Shown in pieces: positions 20,782 to 28,854 of a stretch of DNA of 40,912 nucleotides. Below the pieces are notes generated by a model. That model had not been told where the DNA came from. It did not search any database and was given only the letters and a program-made list of their open reading frames with translations. Position 1 is the stretch's first letter; each line of letters begins with the position of its first letter. The stretch is taken from positions 68,734 to 109,645 of the forward strand of contig JAGUZX010000135.1 in assembly GCA_020060545.1 (NCBI GenBank), given 5' to 3'. Position numbers and translations under genes: made by a program. Source of the stretch: Desulfovibrio sp. GTDB taxonomy: Bacteria; Bacillota; Dethiobacteria; DTU022.

Positions 20782-23442
20782 TTAATCCTCCTTTCGCCGC
20801 TCCAGCAAGGAGAGGACAAATTGCAGTTCTTCTTCCGGAGTGCGTATCTGACCGTCCAGAAGCGCTGCGCGGACCTTTTGCAGAATTTCCTGAAACTGAG
20901 GGCCGGGCTCCAGGCCCAGCTTCTTCAAATCGCCGCCTTTAAGCCTGGGACGGAGATGCTGCAGGCTGTCCAGGTAAAGCCTCAGGTACTCCTTTATTTT
21001 CCCGCTCCGGGAGAGGGCATGCAAAAGCAGGAGTGCTTCCACCGAAAAATCTTCTAGGCGTTTAACCAGCCGGCTCGGGCGCAGCTCTTCCTGGGACAGC
21101 TCATCTAAGGCGCCCGGGACCTCCCGGCATGCCCCCAGGAGCTTTTCCGTCCTTTCGCGTGAAAAGTGCAATCGTCTCATTATAACAAATCGTTTTTCAG
21201 GTTCCAAATCGTAAAGCAGGCCGCCCAGGTAAAGCAACTCCGGATCGGGTTCTGATTTCCATTCCCGCCGCCGGGCCCATTCCAGCGTATCGCCGATGCG
21301 GTTCAGGCGCTGCCATATGTTTGTGTCGGGGCGGATCGAGGGATAAAGGAATGAGAGCACCCCGATTTGATCCAGCCGCCGCAGGATCTGGACGGGCTCC
21401 CGCTCCTTGTAAATCAGGCTGACTTCATGGTTTAGCCGGTGGCGGCTCACTTTTTCCAGGACCTTGCTTTTGACCGCCCTCCCGATCAGCTCCATGGTAT
21501 TCTCATCAATGGTAAAACCAAAACGGTGCTCGAAACGGACCGCACGGAGTATGCGCAACGGATCGTCAGCGAAGCTCAGGTTATAAAGAGTCCGGATCAC
21601 GCCCCGGCTTAAGTCCTCCCGCCCGGCGAAAAAATCGTAGAGTTTGCCGAAAGAACCGGGCATCAGCGAACAGGCCAGGGTGTTGATGGTAAAGTCGCGC
21701 CGGAAAAGATCGCTTTTCAGGCTGGAGGTCTCTTCAACCCGCGGCAGCGCCGCCGGAGCGGCATAGAATTCTTGCCGCGCGGTCGCCAGGTCCAGGCGCA
21801 AACCCTCTTCCAAATATAGGGTAGCTGTGCCAAACTGTTCGTAAACGTGCAGCTTTCCACCCAAAAGCTTTTCCAAATCCCGGGCGAAAGCCACGGCATC
21901 GGGGAAAACAACTAAATCGAGGTCCTGGGGAAGCCGGTAACCGAGGAGAAGGTCCCTGATAAACCCGCCTACCAGGTAAACCCGGGTCTCCAGCCTTTCA
22001 GCCCGCTGTCCAATCATGAGCAGCAAGCCCTGCTGCCTGGGGGAAAGCTCCTTTTTGATCACCTCGTCCAGGTTATCTACTTCCACAACCGGCTTTTTCT
22101 CCCGGAATTTGATCAGGCAGCCTTTTTGTTCGGACGCCCCGCTTCGCCGGTCCAGCCGTTCCAGGGCGCGCAGGATATCGGAGCGGGTCACGATCCCTAC
22201 CGGTTCTATTCCGCCGCGGCCGGAACCAAGGACCGGAATACGCCCGATATTGTGCTCCACCATCATCCGGCGCAATGCGGTTATGGAGCAATCCGCCCCG
22301 GCAGTCATTACCTGACGCTTCATAAAACTTTTTACGGGGGCATGTCCGAGATTGCTGCGCAGCGCTTTCGCTAAATCCCGCCGTGCAATCATCCCGACCA
22401 TTCTTCCCTCTTCCATCACCGGGCAGCCGCCAAACCCTTTGTCGTACAAAAGATCCATCACCCGGGCCACGGTTTCTTCGCTTGGCACGGTTACCAAAGG
22501 GGCGGTAGCCACCTCTCCCGCCGTCAGCGCCGGAGGAATATATCCTTCCAGCAGCTCCAGGATGTTGTTCTTTACCGCGGCAAGATCATCGGTGGCAAGG
22601 AAAGCCGAAACCGCGCTCCGGTGCCCCCTGGCACCGACGGCGGAAAAAAGCCCGGGCAGATCCATTTCATCGCTCAGGGCTTTTACAGCCAGGTAAACCC
22701 CTTTTTCCATTCGCACCAGCGCAACGGCCAACTCAACATCTTCTATTTCCTGCAGGTGCCTGATTAACACTGCCACTCCCTCGACATATTCGTTCATCGC
22801 CGTGCTGCTGATCAGGATCCGCCTCCGGCGCAGCTCGTATAACTCGCTGCCCTCAACCAGCTTTTCCAGGAGCGCTTTTTGGGCGGCGCTCAGGGAGGGG
22901 CGCAGGTGCTCGTTGATAATCTCCATCTTTAAGCCCTCTTCCCACAAAAAAGCGGCGGCGGCGGCATCCCTGGCTGTAGTCATAATTCCGGAAAGTGAGC
23001 CGGTGTTCTCATAGATCCCAAGGGCCAGCAGGGAAGCCTCCAGCTGGGACAAGGCCACCCGGTGCTGCCGGATTGCCTCAACCAGGATTGTGGTTGTAGC
23101 CCCGACCGGTTCCACGATCACTTCATTACCTTCCAGGTCGTCTGCGGCGGGCGGATGGTGATCAATAATATGTACCTCCGCAGCGCGTTCCACCAGGGCC
23201 AGGGCCGGGCCCAGCCGGCTTTTCCGCCTGGTGTCCACCACTACCGCCAGCGGCAAAAGACCTTGCGGCTCTTCCTGTGTTTTCAGCGGCAGTAATTCGC
23301 GGTAAAGGTTGACAAAACGGCGCACATTGGCGTTTAGCAGCTCCGGCAAAACCGCCGCGCTGCCGGGATAAATTTTACTGGCCGCCACCAGGGCCGCCAG
23401 AGCATCGAAATCGGCATGACTATGAGTAACAATCAATACCAC
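20782..23442 (-). CDS. DHH phosphoesterase-CBS-tRNA nucleotidyltransferase three-part protein
   Basis: Three units can be read. Residues 1-300 are a DHH/DHHA1 phosphoesterase (THSHADFDALAALVAA, VVVDTR, HIIDHHPP, and GARGHRSAVSAF). Residues 310-430 are a pair of CBS domains (VARVMDLLYDKGFGGCPVM; IGRIPVLG, GIVTRSDILRAL). Residues 470-886 are a class II polymerase-beta nucleotidyltransferase: YLVGGFIRDLL, the metal-binding LDLVV aspartates, RRDFTINTLA and DPLRILRAVRFEHRFGF. Comparable fusions act as A-adding enzymes on tRNA in Aquifex-type systems, with a separate CC-adding enzyme. GTG starts the gene without a clear ribosome site. I leave the A- or CCA-adding choice open. Confidence 0.88.
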   Translation of the reverse strand: MVLIVTHSHADFDALAALVAASKIYPGSAAVLPELLNANVRRFVNLYRELLPLKTQEEPQGLLPLAVVVDTRRKSRLGPALALVERAAEVHIIDHHPPAADDLEGNEVIVEPVGATTTILVEAIRQHRVALSQLEASLLALGIYENTGSLSGIMTTARDAAAAAFLWEEGLKMEIINEHLRPSLSAAQKALLEKLVEGSELYELRRRRILISSTAMNEYVEGVAVLIRHLQEIEDVELAVALVRMEKGVYLAVKALSDEMDLPGLFSAVGARGHRSAVSAFLATDDLAAVKNNILELLEGYIPPALTAGEVATAPLVTVPSEETVARVMDLLYDKGFGGCPVMEEGRMVGMIARRDLAKALRSNLGHAPVKSFMKRQVMTAGADCSITALRRMMVEHNIGRIPVLGSGRGGIEPVGIVTRSDILRALERLDRRSGASEQKGCLIKFREKKPVVEVDNLDEVIKKELSPRQQGLLLMIGQRAERLETRVYLVGGFIRDLLLGYRLPQDLDLVVFPDAVAFARDLEKLLGGKLHVYEQFGTATLYLEEGLRLDLATARQEFYAAPAALPRVEETSSLKSDLFRRDFTINTLACSLMPGSFGKLYDFFAGREDLSRGVIRTLYNLSFADDPLRILRAVRFEHRFGFTIDENTMELIGRAVKSKVLEKVSRHRLNHEVSLIYKEREPVQILRRLDQIGVLSFLYPSIRPDTNIWQRLNRIGDTLEWARRREWKSEPDPELLYLGGLLYDLEPEKRFVIMRRLHFSRERTEKLLGACREVPGALDELSQEELRPSRLVKRLEDFSVEALLLLHALSRSGKIKEYLRLYLDSLQHLRPRLKGGDLKKLGLEPGPQFQEILQKVRAALLDGQIRTPEEELQFVLSLLERRKED

Positions 23443-23605: not shown

Positions 23606-25084
23606 TTATTTTTTGCGGCGCTTGCTGCGGTCAGAATCACGCGTCCGGAGAAAATCGGGGCGGTAAAGGCTTACCGGCATGGGGCGACGGAGGACAATGC
23701 TGAGAAGGGCCTTTAAGTTTAAGGGGAAAAGAGGCCACATGTAAGGGAATCCAAAGGGCCGGAAAGTAACCATGCGCAGCAGGATCAACCCCATGCCCAG
23801 GAGCAAACCGGGCAGTTTCAGCAGCCCGGTGAGAAGGATCAACATTAAAAGGATCACCCGGTTGGCCATGCTCAGTTCCCAACTCGGCGTGGAAAAAATC
23901 CCGATCGCTACCAGGCCGGTATAAAGCAGGACCTCGGGCACAAAAAAACCGACTTCCACGGCAATTTGCCCGATCAACAGGGCGCCGACCAGGCCCAGGG
24001 CTGTGGCAAAGGGAGAAGGGGTATGGATGCTGGCCATCCGGATCAGGTCCAGTCCAAAATGGGCAAAGATAAATTGCAGATAGAGCGGAATATTTGCTTT
24101 TTCTTTCGGTCCAATAAATTTCAACGCTTCGGGTAGTAAGCGCGGCTCCGTGGCGAAGAGCAGCCATACCGGGATCAAGACAAAAGAGAGAAATATGCCC
24201 AGCATTCTTACCCAACGGATGTAAGTGCCGATCACCGGTGAATGACGGAATTCCTCGGCATGCTGCAAGTGGTGAAAAAAAGTTACCGGGACGATCATCA
24301 CCGAGGGCGATGTGTCGACGACAATAATCACGTGCCCCTCCAGCAGGTGGGTTGCCGCCACGTCGGGGCGCTCCGTATAGCGCACCGCGGGAAAAGGGTT
24401 CCAGAAATTCCCGGTTATAAATTCCTCAACCGATTTTTCCGCCATGGGCAGAGCGTCGATCTCGATCTTTTTGATCCGGGCGCGGATCTGCGCCACGATC
24501 TCCGGCCTGGCGATATCGTTGATATACATGATCGCCACGTCGCTCACCGAGCGCGTGCCGGCTTTGATCGCCTCCGCCCGCAGCTGGGGATCTCTGATCC
24601 TCCGCCGGATCAGGGTGATATTGAAAATCAGAGTTTCGACAAAACCGTCGCGCGAGCCGCGCGTAATTTTTTCGATATCCGGCTCCTCGGGTGAGCGGCC
24701 CGGGTATTGCCTGGTATCGATGATCAGCGCCTGCCGTTCCCCGTCCATGAAGAGAACCATCGGGCCGGCCAAGGCCTCCCTGATCGCCTCTTCCAGATCG
24801 TTGACCGGGGTAACCTCTACGTAAGGGATAATCTCCCGCAGCAGTTTATCTAAGGGCCCGGGAAGAAGCTCTTCTCGCTTCGTGTTCAGCAAAGTACGCA
24901 GAATGAACGTCGATATATCGTTGCTGGTAAACCCGTCGACAAAAAGCAGCGCCGCCTTCTTGCCGCCGATTATGATTTCTTTCAGGATTACATCGAAATT
25001 ATTTTCACCGAGGCCCAGGCGGTCTTTGACGTAAGCGTTATTGTCCTCCAGTTTCTTGCTGATTTTTACTTTTCCGCCTGTCAT
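23606..25084 (-). CDS. spoVAF: Stage V sporulation protein AF (GerA-family membrane protein)
   Basis: SpoVAF resembles the A subunit of germinant receptors and is linked to the SpoVA dipicolinate channel in the spore inner membrane. The soluble N-terminal domain (1-270) contains LLFVDGF, EVTPVNDLEEAI, and EEFITGNFWNPFPAVRYTERPDVAATHLLEGH. The characteristic VVDTSPSVMIVPVTFFHHLQHAEEF then leads into about five membrane helices, with HTPSPFATALGLVGALLIGQ and EVLLYTGLVAIGIFSTPSWEL. The ATG at 25084 follows AAAGGAG by 14 nt; a GTG 18 codons upstream is possible. In Bacillus spoVAF closes the spoVA operon after sigF. Here it follows sigF, but spoVAA-AE are absent. Confidence 0.93.
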   Translation of the reverse strand: MTGGKVKISKKLEDNNAYVKDRLGLGENNFDVILKEIIIGGKKAALLFVDGFTSNDISTFILRTLLNTKREELLPGPLDKLLREIIPYVEVTPVNDLEEAIREALAGPMVLFMDGERQALIIDTRQYPGRSPEEPDIEKITRGSRDGFVETLIFNITLIRRRIRDPQLRAEAIKAGTRSVSDVAIMYINDIARPEIVAQIRARIKKIEIDALPMAEKSVEEFITGNFWNPFPAVRYTERPDVAATHLLEGHVIIVVDTSPSVMIVPVTFFHHLQHAEEFRHSPVIGTYIRWVRMLGIFLSFVLIPVWLLFATEPRLLPEALKFIGPKEKANIPLYLQFIFAHFGLDLIRMASIHTPSPFATALGLVGALLIGQIAVEVGFFVPEVLLYTGLVAIGIFSTPSWELSMANRVILLMLILLTGLLKLPGLLLGMGLILLRMVTFRPFGFPYMWPLFPLNLKALLSIVLRRPMPVSLYRPDFLRTRDSDRSKRRKK

Positions 25085-25189
25085 AGCCGGCCGGATCGCT
25101 CCTTTCGATAACGGCTGCCGGTAGAAAAAAATGGGCACAAAAAAGAGGCCCGCAGTTCAACCGGGCCATTGCCGCCTTCGCTGCTCCTG

Positions 25190-25591
25190 TTAACGGTGCT
25201 CCCGCACGCCGAAAGCCAGTTTCAGGTTCACTTTATACTCCGTGATTTCACCATCATCCAGATCCGCGGTAAAGTTGACAACTTCGACCCCGGTAATGTT
25301 GTCCACTGTTTTGGCCGCTTCTCTTACCGCATTCCGCATGGCATCATCCCAGCTTGATTTAGACTCGCCGACCAGTTCGATTATTTTGGCTACCGTTGTC
25401 ATCTGAGCAAACCTCCTACTGTTTTTAATGATGAAACCGGCGGTTTCACGCCAGACGGGCCGTGAACGGCGGGGCGGTTCCTTGGGCGCGTGGAACCAGA
25501 GCATATAGATTAACAAGCCCGATACAAGTAAAAAGAGGGCCGACAAAAAAATAACCGCCGCATACCTCAGGGTATATTCTCGAAAGAGCAT
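25190..25591 (-). CDS. Dodecin-domain protein with an N-terminal membrane helix
   Basis: One frame of 133 codons encodes a 63-residue N-terminal part with a single membrane helix (RYAAVIFLSALFLLVSGLLI, about 9-28) and a basic linker (PPRRSRPVW). A 70-residue dodecin domain starts MTTVAKIIELVGESKSSWDD and ends EYKVNLKLAFGV. Dodecins form hollow 12-mers that store flavins; the Trp that stacks on flavin in archaeal dodecin is replaced here (NITGVEVV), as I recall for other Firmicutes. GGGGGAGG precedes the first ATG. A second strong site, AGGAGG, precedes the dodecin ATG at 25402, so a soluble 70-aa form may also be made. It lies between sigF and spoVAF behind a sigma-G-type promoter. Confidence 0.8.
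   Translation of the reverse strand: MLFREYTLRYAAVIFLSALFLLVSGLLIYMLWFHAPKEPPRRSRPVWRETAGFIIKNSRRFAQMTTVAKIIELVGESKSSWDDAMRNAVREAAKTVDNITGVEVVNFTADLDDGEITEYKVNLKLAFGVREHR
25411..25417 (-). promoter_or_regulatory. Internal ribosome site for a short dodecin
   Basis: AGGAGGT on the minus strand lies 8 nt before the in-frame ATG at 25402. It sits inside the coding frame of the membrane-anchored version, encoding part of NSRRFAQ. This would allow two products from one frame. Confidence 0.5.
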
Positions 25592-25624
25592 TTGCCCTCC
25601 CCCTTTAAGGGTTTACAGCGATTT

Positions 25625-25653
25625 TAGTATGTTTCAAAACGGCATTTATATAC
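25625..25653 (-). promoter_or_regulatory. Sigma-G-type promoter before dodecin-spoVAF
   Basis: GTATA (-35) and CATACTA (-10) on the minus strand are 17 bp apart, matching the Bacillus sigma-G consensus at every defined base. It begins immediately after the sigF stop, 34 bp before the ATG of the dodecin gene. The Bacillus spoVA operon is under sigma-G, so the location fits. Confidence 0.65.
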
Positions 25654-25655
25654 CG

Positions 25656-26351
25656 TTATTGCTGCAGATAACAGCGAAGTTGCCCCAAGATCCTTTTTTC
25701 CAGGCGGGATACCTGGCGCTGGGAAAGGGCAAGGCTCTGGGCAATTTCCGCCTGGGTCAGCTCTTTAAAGAACCTGAGTTCAATAATCTTACGTTCCAGG
25801 GGAGAAAGTTTGCTCATTGACTCATAAAGGGCAAGACGGTCCAACAACTCTTCTTCATGGCTGGCGGCGGCCCCGCCAAGGGGAAGTTCTTCTGCCAGCG
25901 AGCAAACCGGCAAGGCCGCTTCCATGGCCAGAACCACCTCTTCAGGGGAGATCCCCATCTTCACCGCCAGCTCCGAAACGGTCGGCTGGCGCTGAAGAAC
26001 CTGGGTTAGCCGTTCGCGTAAGGAACTCAACGCGCGTGACTGCTCCTGCAACGTCCGGCTCACTTTGAGCGGGTATTGATAGTTCCTGCGGTAAGTGCGT
26101 ATCTCTCCCTTGATCCAGGTCACGGCATAAGTGACAAACTTGACTGGAGCCTGCAGGTTAAACCGCCGCGCTGCTTTCAACAGGCCGATCATTCCCACCT
26201 GGAAACAGTCCTCCGTTTCCGAAGGTCCATAAGCGGCACGTCCGGCCATGGCGGAGACCAGCGGGCTCATCCGGGCCACCAGTTCTCCGCCGGCCTCCCC
26301 GTCCCCGTTTTGGAAGCGGCGCAGCAGGCCCCGCAGCAACTCTTCATTCAT
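25656..26351 (-). CDS. sigF: RNA polymerase sporulation sigma factor F
   Basis: SigF is the first forespore-specific sigma factor, held inactive by SpoIIAB. Region 2 is seen in LVSAMAGRAAYGPSETEDCFQVGMIGLLKA and FVTYAVTWIKGEIRTYRR. Region 3 has SELAVKMGISPEEVV, and region 4 ends with LSPLERKIIELRFFKELTQAEIAQSLALSQRQVSRLEKRIL, a full helix-turn-helix. The length of 231 aa is close to the Bacillus protein. It begins 3 bp after spoIIAB. Its identity as SigF, not SigG, follows from the spoIIA context. Confidence 0.96.
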   Translation of the reverse strand: MNEELLRGLLRRFQNGDGEAGGELVARMSPLVSAMAGRAAYGPSETEDCFQVGMIGLLKAARRFNLQAPVKFVTYAVTWIKGEIRTYRRNYQYPLKVSRTLQEQSRALSSLRERLTQVLQRQPTVSELAVKMGISPEEVVLAMEAALPVCSLAEELPLGGAAASHEEELLDRLALYESMSKLSPLERKIIELRFFKELTQAEIAQSLALSQRQVSRLEKRILGQLRCYLQQ

Positions 26352-26354
26352 AAA

Positions 26355-26801
26355 CTACTTCTCCCCGGAATCACCTTTGGACCGGATCTCTTTAATCAGC
26401 CGGACCGTGGTTCCCTGGCCCGGGGTTGAGCGTACCTCCATCTCATCCATGAAGTTCTCCATGATTGTAAAGCCCATTCCTGAGCGCTCCAGTTCAGGCT
26501 TACTGGTAAAAAGCGGCTGGCGTGCTTTCTCCAGGTCGGCAATACCCACTCCCCGGTCGGCGATCTCCACAAACAGCTTCTTCCCTTCCAGGTGAGCGTT
26601 AATCGTAATGATGCCCACCTCGTCTTCATAAGCATGAATAATGGCATTGGTGACCGCTTCGGAAACCGCTGTTTTGATGTCGCTGATTTCGTCCAGGGTG
26701 GGGTCCAGCCGCGAAACAAAAGCGGCGACAACAACCCGGGCAAAGGCTTCGTTTTCGGAACGGCTCGGTATTTCCAGTTTCATATACGAGCGATACAGCA
26801 A
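26355..26801 (-). CDS. spoIIAB: Anti-sigma-F factor and serine kinase
   Basis: SpoIIAB binds SigF and phosphorylates SpoIIAA. It is a GHKL kinase: N-box [15 protein letters not shown]1 box [11 protein letters not shown], and G2 [16 protein letters not shown]. The beginning [21 protein letters not shown] is typical. Two starts compete: the TTG at 26801, 10 nt after AAGGAGG, and an ATG six codons later that gives the more usual N-terminus MKLEIPSRS. The ribosome site overlaps the end of spoIIAA, so the genes are coupled. Confidence 0.95.
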
Positions 26802-26805
26802 GCGA

Positions 26806-27171
26806 TTACGACCTCCTTTTGGGCGTTCGGCCCATAATCATATGCTCCAGGGCTTCCTTTTCGCTCTCAAAAAAAGGGATAATCCTGGGCAAACCTGCGA
26901 TTTGCAGCACTTTCAATACCGCCTCCGAAGCGCTGCAAACAGCCATCAGCCCGCCCCGCTCCCGGATCCTCCGGTAGCGCCCCAACAGGACGCCCACCCC
27001 GGAGCTGTCGGTGAAGGTTAAGCCTTGCAGGTTGAAAATAACATTGTGCACCGGATCCCGCGCCAGTTCTCCATCCACCGCCTCCCGCAGGCGGCCGGTC
27101 CAGTGATGATCCAGTTCGCCCTGCAAGCGAACCAGCAGGTTGGCCTGGTGCAGTGCAAGCTCAATTTCCAT
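26806..27171 (-). CDS. spoIIAA: Anti-anti-sigma-F factor
   Basis: SpoIIAA frees SigF by binding SpoIIAB when unphosphorylated. The STAS domain contains [12 protein letters not shown] near the start and [19 protein letters not shown], in which the first or second Ser of DSSG is the site phosphorylated by SpoIIAB. ATG 27171 is chosen for GGGAGG 5 nt upstream; the open frame begins 17 codons earlier without a ribosome site. The 121-residue length fits. It heads the spoIIA operon behind a sigma-H-like promoter and an 0A box. Confidence 0.95.
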
Positions 27172-27211
27172 GGCAACCTCCCGTATTTTGAAATAGAATC
27201 GCTTTGGAAAA

Positions 27212-27240
27212 TAGTTCTGCACTTCTCAAAATTTCCCTGC
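27212..27240 (-). promoter_or_regulatory. Sigma-H-like promoter of the spoIIA operon
   Basis: GCAGGGAAA and GCAGAACTA on the minus strand are 11 bp apart, against RnAGGAwww-N11-12-RnnGAATww. Each half has one mismatch. It lies 41 bp before the spoIIAA start codon, as in Bacillus where the operon is transcribed by sigma-H RNA polymerase with Spo0A-P. Confidence 0.55.
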
Positions 27241-27518: not shown

Positions 27519-28697
27519 TTAGCGGCCGAATCTTACCCAGCGATCCAGCAGGCGCAGGAAGACCGCAACCTGTGATGCCCGGCAAACCGGTTCCGCCGCC
27601 ACCAGGTCTACCGAGGCTTCTTCGCCATCACCGTAGGTCACAACTAGCTCCCCTACTTTTTGTCCCTTCTGCAATGGGAACTTCACCGGCAAGATTTTTA
27701 CCTCCTGCAGGAAATCTTCGGCGTCCCCCCTGGCCATCAACAGGTTGAGCTTTTTTGCCGCGATCAGCTTTACCTGGGGCGGGGATCCCTTGTCTACAGG
27801 CAGCAGGGTAAACACTGCGCCTTTTTCGATTACCGGGACGCTTTTAAAGTGGCTGAACCCGTAGTCGAGGAGCAGCCGGGCCGCTTCGTAGCGGTCTTCC
27901 ACTGTCGGAGAACCGAGGACAACGGCCAAAAAGCGGGTTTCTCCCCGCTGCGCCGTGGCGGAGATGCCGTTGCCCGCCTCCCGCGTGAACCCTGTTTTGA
28001 GCCCGTCACACCCCTGGTAGTAGCGGACCATGCGGTTGGTGTTGCTCAAAAAAACCTCGCCGGAGCGAATCTTTCCCTGCAAGAAATGTTCATCCATCCA
28101 GATCGTGGCCCACCGGTGGATTTGCGGGTATTCCAGCAGCGCGCAGCTCATCAGCATTACGTCATGGACAGTGCTGTAATGTTCAGGATGGTGCAGCCCG
28201 TGCGGATTGCAAAAATTGGTGTTGATCATGCCCAACTCCCGCGCTTTTTCGTTCATCATCTCGACAAAAGCTTCCACAGACCCGCCCACATGTTCGGCCA
28301 CCGCCACGGCGGCATCATTCGCCGATCCTACCGCCATCCCGGTGAGCAGGTTTTCCAGGGAAACGACATCACCCTCGCTTAAAAACAGTTCGGAACCGCC
28401 CATGGCGGAAGCCCTGGCGCTGACACGAACCGGGTCTTCCAAGCCCGCTTTCCCAAGCTCCAGCTGCTCCATCACCACCAGCAGGCTCATGATCTTGGTA
28501 ATACTGGCCGGATACAACCTTTCATGGCTTTTTATTTCCCAAATCACCTTCCCGCTGTATACCTCCATCAGGAGAGCGGCTTCCGCTTTGAGATTAAAAA
28601 CCGGCTCCTGAGCCGCCTCGGTCACGGCGGGTTGCAGACAAAGGAAAAATAACAATAGGATCGTTATGGGCCACGGGCGAAATGTTTTCACCTTCAT
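27519..28697 (-). CDS. dacF: D-alanyl-D-alanine carboxypeptidase (DacF)
   Basis: DacF is a forespore D,D-carboxypeptidase that modifies cortex and germ-cell-wall peptides. A signal peptide (MKVKTFRPWPITILLLFF, cut near AVTEAA) precedes SITK (SxxK), SAN (GSANDAAVAVAEH) and KTG (CDGLKTGFT), then the PBP5_C beta domain and a C-terminal amphipathic segment (AVFLRLLDRWVRF) for membrane attachment. ATG 28697 has AAAGGGGA upstream; the open frame extends 37 codons further without similarity. The position before spoIIAA is the same as in Bacillus, where dacF is read from its own sigma-F promoter. The two carboxypeptidases in this window share the same layout. Confidence 0.94.
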   Translation of the reverse strand: MKVKTFRPWPITILLLFFLCLQPAVTEAAQEPVFNLKAEAALLMEVYSGKVIWEIKSHERLYPASITKIMSLLVVMEQLELGKAGLEDPVRVSARASAMGGSELFLSEGDVVSLENLLTGMAVGSANDAAVAVAEHVGGSVEAFVEMMNEKARELGMINTNFCNPHGLHHPEHYSTVHDVMLMSCALLEYPQIHRWATIWMDEHFLQGKIRSGEVFLSNTNRMVRYYQGCDGLKTGFTREAGNGISATAQRGETRFLAVVLGSPTVEDRYEAARLLLDYGFSHFKSVPVIEKGAVFTLLPVDKGSPPQVKLIAAKKLNLLMARGDAEDFLQEVKILPVKFPLQKGQKVGELVVTYGDGEEASVDLVAAEPVCRASQVAVFLRLLDRWVRFGR

Positions 28698-28718
28698 TAA
28701 TCCCCTTTCATTTTTTTC

Positions 28719-28748
28719 TATTTTCTCCAACAGGGATGGAAATAATAC
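28719..28748 (-). promoter_or_regulatory. Sigma-F-type promoter before dacF
   Basis: GTATT (-35) and GGAGAAAATA (-10) are 15 bp apart on the minus strand. The -10 fits the sigma-F pattern GGnnAnAnTA in full; the -35 has one mismatch to GyATA. Distance to the dacF ATG is 21 bp from the -10, giving a very short leader that includes the ribosome site. Confidence 0.55.
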
Positions 28749-28854
28749 CGCGCCAGGCGTGAGGGATTGGACGGCGCGACCAGGCGCAAACATCGCCTCC
28801 AGTTTCACGCCTGGGAATGTGGACTTGAACCGGATTGGTCTAGAGGAAGTTTGT

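Follow-up and report, generated by a model that had tools for sequence, protein, structure and literature searches.

A spoIIA-linked dodecin family of Bacillota with probable forespore expression and its run-on with a one-helix membrane protein gene in one genome

Genes and signals at the locus

The window, that is, the whole analyzed stretch of 40,912 nucleotides, contains a single uninterrupted frame that runs on the minus strand from an ATG at position 25591 to a stop at 25190 and encodes 133 aa in 133 codons. As originally predicted, each of the two parts of this frame is preceded by its own ribosome site, GGGGGAGG-N4-ATG(25591) and AGGAGGT-N8-ATG(25402). The C-terminal part is a dodecin. 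Residues 67 to 129 of the frame matched the Pfam Dodecin family PF07311 with an E value of 1.2e-26, and the last 70 residues scored 95.7 bits, well over the family cut-off of 22.5, which places them in the family. Modeled by itself with AlphaFold2, the 70-aa part took on the dodecin fold with confidence (pLDDT 89.6), with the β-α-β-β arrangement in the single-chain model (strand 6-14, helix 18-30, strands 36-49 and 52-64), and the best PDB matches of this model were solved dodecins with TM-scores of 0.78 to 0.86. The first 63 residues contain one hydrophobic helix, and no Pfam or NCBIfam family matched them. The model of the fused 133-aa chain, in which a single N-terminal helix spans residues 2 to 33, was of low confidence (pLDDT 54.6, three rows) and uninformative.

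The features of the locus are collected in Table 1. Dodecin and helix gene lie behind a spoIIA cluster, and the original prediction placed spoVAF immediately downstream. The gene found there is of the GerA type and probably is spoVAF, since it occupies the spot at which spoVAF stands in relatives. At one such locus (L034), the GerA-type gene comes after spoVAC-AD-AEb. The window genome has spoVAC, spoVAD, and spoVAEb grouped on another contig (L175, G000 C28:49447-51251), away from spoIIA-dodecin-spoVAF, and for this reason the GerA gene directly follows the dodecin here. Next after the GerA gene, positions 20782 to 23442 encode a protein of the long A-adding tRNA nucleotidyltransferase type (NF041569, 534.6 bits, below the cut-off of 1440). 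The arrangement in the window resembles that of Bacillus subtilis, whose spoIIA and spoVA operons likewise bring dacF, spoIIAA, spoIIAB, sigF, and spoVA-type genes near each other. It differs from that of B. subtilis by the presence of a dodecin; a search of the B. subtilis control genome returned none.

Table 1. Positions and assignment of features on the minus strand of the window
Feature	Position	Strand	Basis or remark
Probable spoVAF, GerA-family germination gene	23606..25138	(-)	PF03323, 510 bits, E 5e-153
Free-standing dodecin, 70 aa, spoIIA-linked type	25190..25402	(-)	start ATG 25402; PF07311 E 2e-27; dodecin fold
One-helix membrane protein gene, RRSRPV family	25403..25591	(-)	separate ORF in relatives; own stop codon missing here
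Nonconserved tail of helix gene	25403-25453	(-)	
Conserved core of helix gene (residues 1-46)	25454-25591	(-)	
Dodecin ribosome site AGGAGGT	25411..25417	(-)	sequence
Helix-gene ribosome site GGGGGAGG	25596..25603	(-)	sequence
Sigma-G-like (forespore) promoter GTATA-N17-CATACTA	25625..25653	(-)	pattern match and recurrence in relatives; right behind sigF
Promoter -10 element CATACTA	25625-25631	(-)	
Promoter -35 element GTATA	25649-25653	(-)	
sigF (spoIIAC)	25656..26351	(-)	TIGR02885 180.8 bits, sigG 144.6, both under cut-off; spoIIAA and spoIIAB adjoin
spoIIAB, anti-sigma factor	26355..26801	(-)	HATPase_c_2 and position
spoIIAA, anti-anti-sigma factor	26806..27222	(-)	STAS domain and position
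dacF-type D-Ala-D-Ala carboxypeptidase	27519..28808	(-)	Peptidase_S11 and PBP5_C

The helix part and the dodecin in related genomes

In the order to which the source genome belongs, the helix segment is a small stand-alone protein in which a P(R/K)RSRPV motif follows the helix and the tail varies; the RSRPV portion of the motif is nearly invariant. Strong matches to the helix gene were obtained in 30 of 150 genomes, all of them within this order, and comparison of coordinates placed the gene next to the dodecin in 28 of the 30. In G052, each of the two lies at the end of a contig, as would be expected if a break had separated neighbors. In G012 (C59, L158), a member of the family, the helix gene follows sigF and there is no dodecin; the helix protein may therefore have a role of its own. 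Over the first 46 residues, the codons of the window gene differ from those of the nearest relative, G001, by 16 synonymous and 14 nonsynonymous changes. On sequence grounds, the helix gene is a real gene. Comparison of the helix family with Pfam gave scattered weak matches, none common to two members, which rules out assignment to a known family. A general partnership with dodecins is likewise ruled out beyond the order of the source genome, where the dodecin occurs without the helix gene; in most of the phylum, it occupies the same place in this form. As a local variation, a DnaJ-like gene separates sigF from the helix gene in G046 (L032:2397-2849(-)).

The original prediction interpreted the open frame as a dodecin tethered to the membrane by fusion. 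We compared the loci, taken from whole genomes, of the 28 genomes that contain both the helix part and the dodecin. A single open frame was found in only two, the window genome (G000) and G018. In the other 26, the helix gene either ends before the dodecin begins or runs across the dodecin start in a different frame, and G029, although congeneric with G018, is among these unfused genomes. Summing over all linkers the probability that each is in frame and free of stops gave 1.62 fused frames expected by chance among 28 pairs. Two were observed. The linker showed no conservation, and the position of the dodecin start opens a separate gene in relatives, with a purine-rich ribosome site ahead of it. 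The frame is thus real, as predicted, whereas fusion beyond chance was not borne out: the alignment of relatives gave the very result that the prediction itself had named as refuting. On the strength of the unfused relatives and the chance estimate, we rejected an evolved tether as unlikely.

In G001, the stop of the helix gene lies 27 nt ahead of the dodecin start, within a stretch that is absent from G000 in the alignment. The frames of the window genome run together because this gap of about 27 nt removes the helix gene's own stop. Provided that the assembly is correct, G000 would nevertheless produce the fusion, since its helix gene lacks a stop, and the strain would make the helix protein in fused form only. 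The best interpretation is that a stop was lost from an unconstrained tail, or that the fusion is an assembly error. It looks like a local accident; nothing points to a conserved design.

Occurrence, neighborhood, and promoter across the phylum

A dodecin profile built from 18 sequences was run on a phylum-wide sample of 299 Bacillota genomes and matched in 172. Neighborhoods were read at 110 loci, about one per genus, with flanks of 1.5 to 3 kb. Directly upstream and on the same strand, sigF was present at 87 of the 110 loci, with four more having it nearby on the opposite strand, and spoVAC began no more than 400 nt downstream of the dodecin at 77. A spoIIA or spoVA/GerA gene lay within the flank at 105 loci; five had no sporulation gene nearby. 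Typically, the genes run spoIIAA-spoIIAB-sigF-dodecin-spoVAC, and spoVAD, spoVAEb, and a GerA gene come later (e.g., L034). Among cultured species, Thermoanaerobacterium butyriciformans DSM 101588 (L039) carries the dodecin.

Presence of the dodecin also followed that of the spore sigma factor. Of the 260 genomes that have spore sigF, 170 encode the dodecin; of the 39 that do not, one encodes it (Fisher P = 7e-15, kinship ignored). For this count, spore sigF was scored as present when the TIGR02885 match was clearly stronger than the values of other sigma factors (1e-44 or weaker), a cut that was set by eye, and a weak paralogue in G007 was left out. Judging by these genomes, the dodecin hardly ever occurs without spore sigF. 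At 92 loci, mean pairwise identity was 57% for the dodecin versus 47% for SigF, and the distance matrices of the two proteins correlated with an r of 0.29, the largest value in 1,000 permutations being 0.21. Such correlated distances are consistent with long joint descent. Similar dodecins also occur on a few contigs from outside Bacillota and, in some relatives, without spoIIA nearby (L040-L042, L169-L173). Five members of the window family (G005, G009, G015, G019, and G033; L169-L173) have such a dodecin away from the spoIIA genes searched.

The promoter had been predicted to be of the sigma-G type. Its two elements in the window recur in related genomes, and a stretch CATACTAAAA(C/T)CGC upstream of the helix gene is kept in six further family genomes (L006, L007, L009, L010, L011, and L029), with a variant, AATACTAAAACCGC, in L005. 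The phylum-wide comparison used 82 loci with sigF upstream and without the helix gene. A sigma-F- or sigma-G-type pattern was present in 27 of the 82 upstream regions, compared with 2.6 in shuffled sequences and 3 on the opposite strand; permuted motifs gave 2.2 matches (standard deviation, 1.8; maximum, 12 in 500 trials). The -10 element ended 26 to 67 nt ahead of the start codon. It should be noted that about two-thirds of the 82 loci had no match to the patterns used. By the window promoter, its conservation in relatives, and its enrichment in the phylum, the signal is of the forespore type, and expression of the dodecin in the forespore is well supported by sequence. Of the original prediction, forespore (sigma-F/G) control and the sporulation context extend across the phylum. 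By its neighborhoods, the dodecin represents a sporulation-linked branch that has been retained throughout Bacillota where spoIIA meets spoVA.

Pocket residues and possible roles

Known dodecins serve to store flavin. PDB titles name W38, R45, and R65 as residues mutated in the Thermus dodecin, and we take these residues to have a part in flavin or FMN binding. The flavin-stacking tryptophan had been noted as absent from the window protein, and position 38 is indeed Gly. Among 125 distinct spoIIA-linked sequences, it is Gly in 124. Position 45 is Thr in 124 sequences, in contrast to Arg in the bacterial flavin dodecins compared, and position 57, Gln in the latter, is Lys in 122, including the window protein. 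Asn43 is conserved in 122 sequences, as is Glu40, and all 125 have an aromatic residue (Y, F, or W) at position 56. The isoalloxazine rings bound by flavin dodecins are sandwiched between tryptophans related by symmetry (PMC7414021). The window protein has neither Trp38 nor Gln57. As the original prediction suggested, its ligand may not be flavin; with these pocket residues replaced, the protein probably is not a flavin binder. Because the replacements are nearly invariant, they argue for a different selected ligand or partner and not for decay.

The spoIIA-linked dodecin shares its fold, its length of about 70 aa, and PF07311 with the flavin-binding bacterial dodecins of Thermus thermophilus (TTHA1431), Mycobacterium tuberculosis (Rv1498A), and Streptomyces. 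It differs from them in sequence (28 to 35% identity), in the change of W38, R45, and Gln57 to Gly, Thr, and Lys, and in its spoIIA/spoVA neighborhood, and it falls under the NCBIfam cut-off for bacterial dodecin (NF043052). The calcium dodecin Rv0379 (SecE2; PDB 3onr) is, like the window protein, Trp-less and has an SW(D/E)xA motif in the helix, with 32 to 33% identity, whereas its residues 38, 40, 43, and 45 are V, R, E, and D, compared with G, E, N, and T in the spore-linked proteins. The window genome encodes, besides the spoIIA-linked dodecin, a separate Rv0379-like protein of the dodecin fold (L002/L177, G000 C44:17635-17838). This protein has RVAEV at the Trp position and lies away from spore genes of the families searched.

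We consider it moderately probable that the locus comprises two genes, one for a one-helix membrane protein limited to the order and one for a free dodecin, which would form a forespore-made, non-flavin 12-mer holding a spore ligand. This reading rests on the separate genes in relatives, the neighborhood, the co-occurrence with sigF, the promoter enrichment, the fold, and the loss of the flavin residues, from which we infer forespore timing in vivo, 12-mer assembly, a ligand, and a role. Both genes would probably be transcribed in the forespore from the sigma-G-like promoter just behind sigF. Twelve copies of the free 70-aa dodecin would build the shell typical of the family inside the forespore core. 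The altered pocket, in which Gly replaces the stacking Trp, Thr replaces Arg45, and Lys replaces Gln, would hold a non-flavin ligand, probably a small molecule that is anionic or resembles a cofactor. Such a ligand may be kept through dormancy and freed on germination. More tentatively, and perhaps with about one chance in three, dedicated spore dodecins may fill the forespore with 12-mer shells in much of the spore-forming Bacillota and store in the remodeled pocket a non-flavin molecule for germination (e.g., CoA, a nucleotide-like cofactor, or dipicolinate/calcium); they would be an overlooked part of the forespore that the B. subtilis model lacks.

The main rival holds that the dodecin is no store at all. 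It would instead be a partner of the neighboring SpoVA or GerA/SpoVAF proteins, for example, a cytosolic one in DPA traffic or germination, with the RRSRPV helix protein serving, in the order of the source genome, as the membrane contact in trans. We regard this as unlikely. It draws on the spoVAC or GerA gene that comes next downstream at most loci, on the adjacency of helix gene and dodecin, and on the constancy of the RSRPV motif, but contact cannot be read from gene order alone. Moreover, spoVACDE is on another contig in the window genome, SpoVA runs without a dodecin in B. subtilis, and G012 lacks a dodecin despite having the helix gene. A spore flavin store that resembles known dodecins but binds flavin in another way would agree with the family, the fold, and the invariably aromatic position 56; it is quite improbable, and not favored, in view of the residues at positions 38, 45, and 57. 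That an ordinary housekeeping dodecin came to lie near spoIIA by chance, with no special role in the spore, is highly improbable: dodecins of the same type do occur without spoIIA nearby, in some relatives and outside Bacillota, but nearly all loci read are in sporulation neighborhoods, presence tracks spore sigF, and forespore-type promoters are enriched. Hardly credible is an evolved fusion that anchors the shell to the forespore inner membrane and leaves a free form to the internal start, for which the open frame and the two ribosome sites in G000 and G018 speak, as does the lack of a stop before the dodecin for ribosomes that start at 25591, since, apart from the unfused relatives and the unconserved linker, the shell is 23-symmetric with exposed termini (PMC7414021) that point outward in all directions, so that twelve anchors could presumably not all enter one membrane. 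Forespore control, the sporulation context, and a probably non-flavin dodecin are what stands of the original prediction; the evolved tether does not.

Literature searches combining dodecin with sporulation or spores yielded no paper that ties dodecins to bacterial endospores; subscription papers were largely outside these searches, and novelty is to that extent unproven. Dodecin is not mentioned in the main text of a 2012 survey of sporulation genes (PMC3533761) or in the main texts of a Clostridium perfringens sporulation transcriptome and a 2021 study of gut Firmicutes. Gene lists derived from B. subtilis could not include it, because that species has none, and for the same reason the B. 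subtilis model cannot reveal a spore dodecin. Returning to the two-gene reading, the spoIIA-linked dodecins appear to be a little-noticed family, probably made in the developing spore. Their position between spoIIA and spoVA in most carrier genera, together with a conservation higher than that of SigF, looks like that of a common forespore protein. If true, this would extend the dodecins from flavin storage to spore dormancy.
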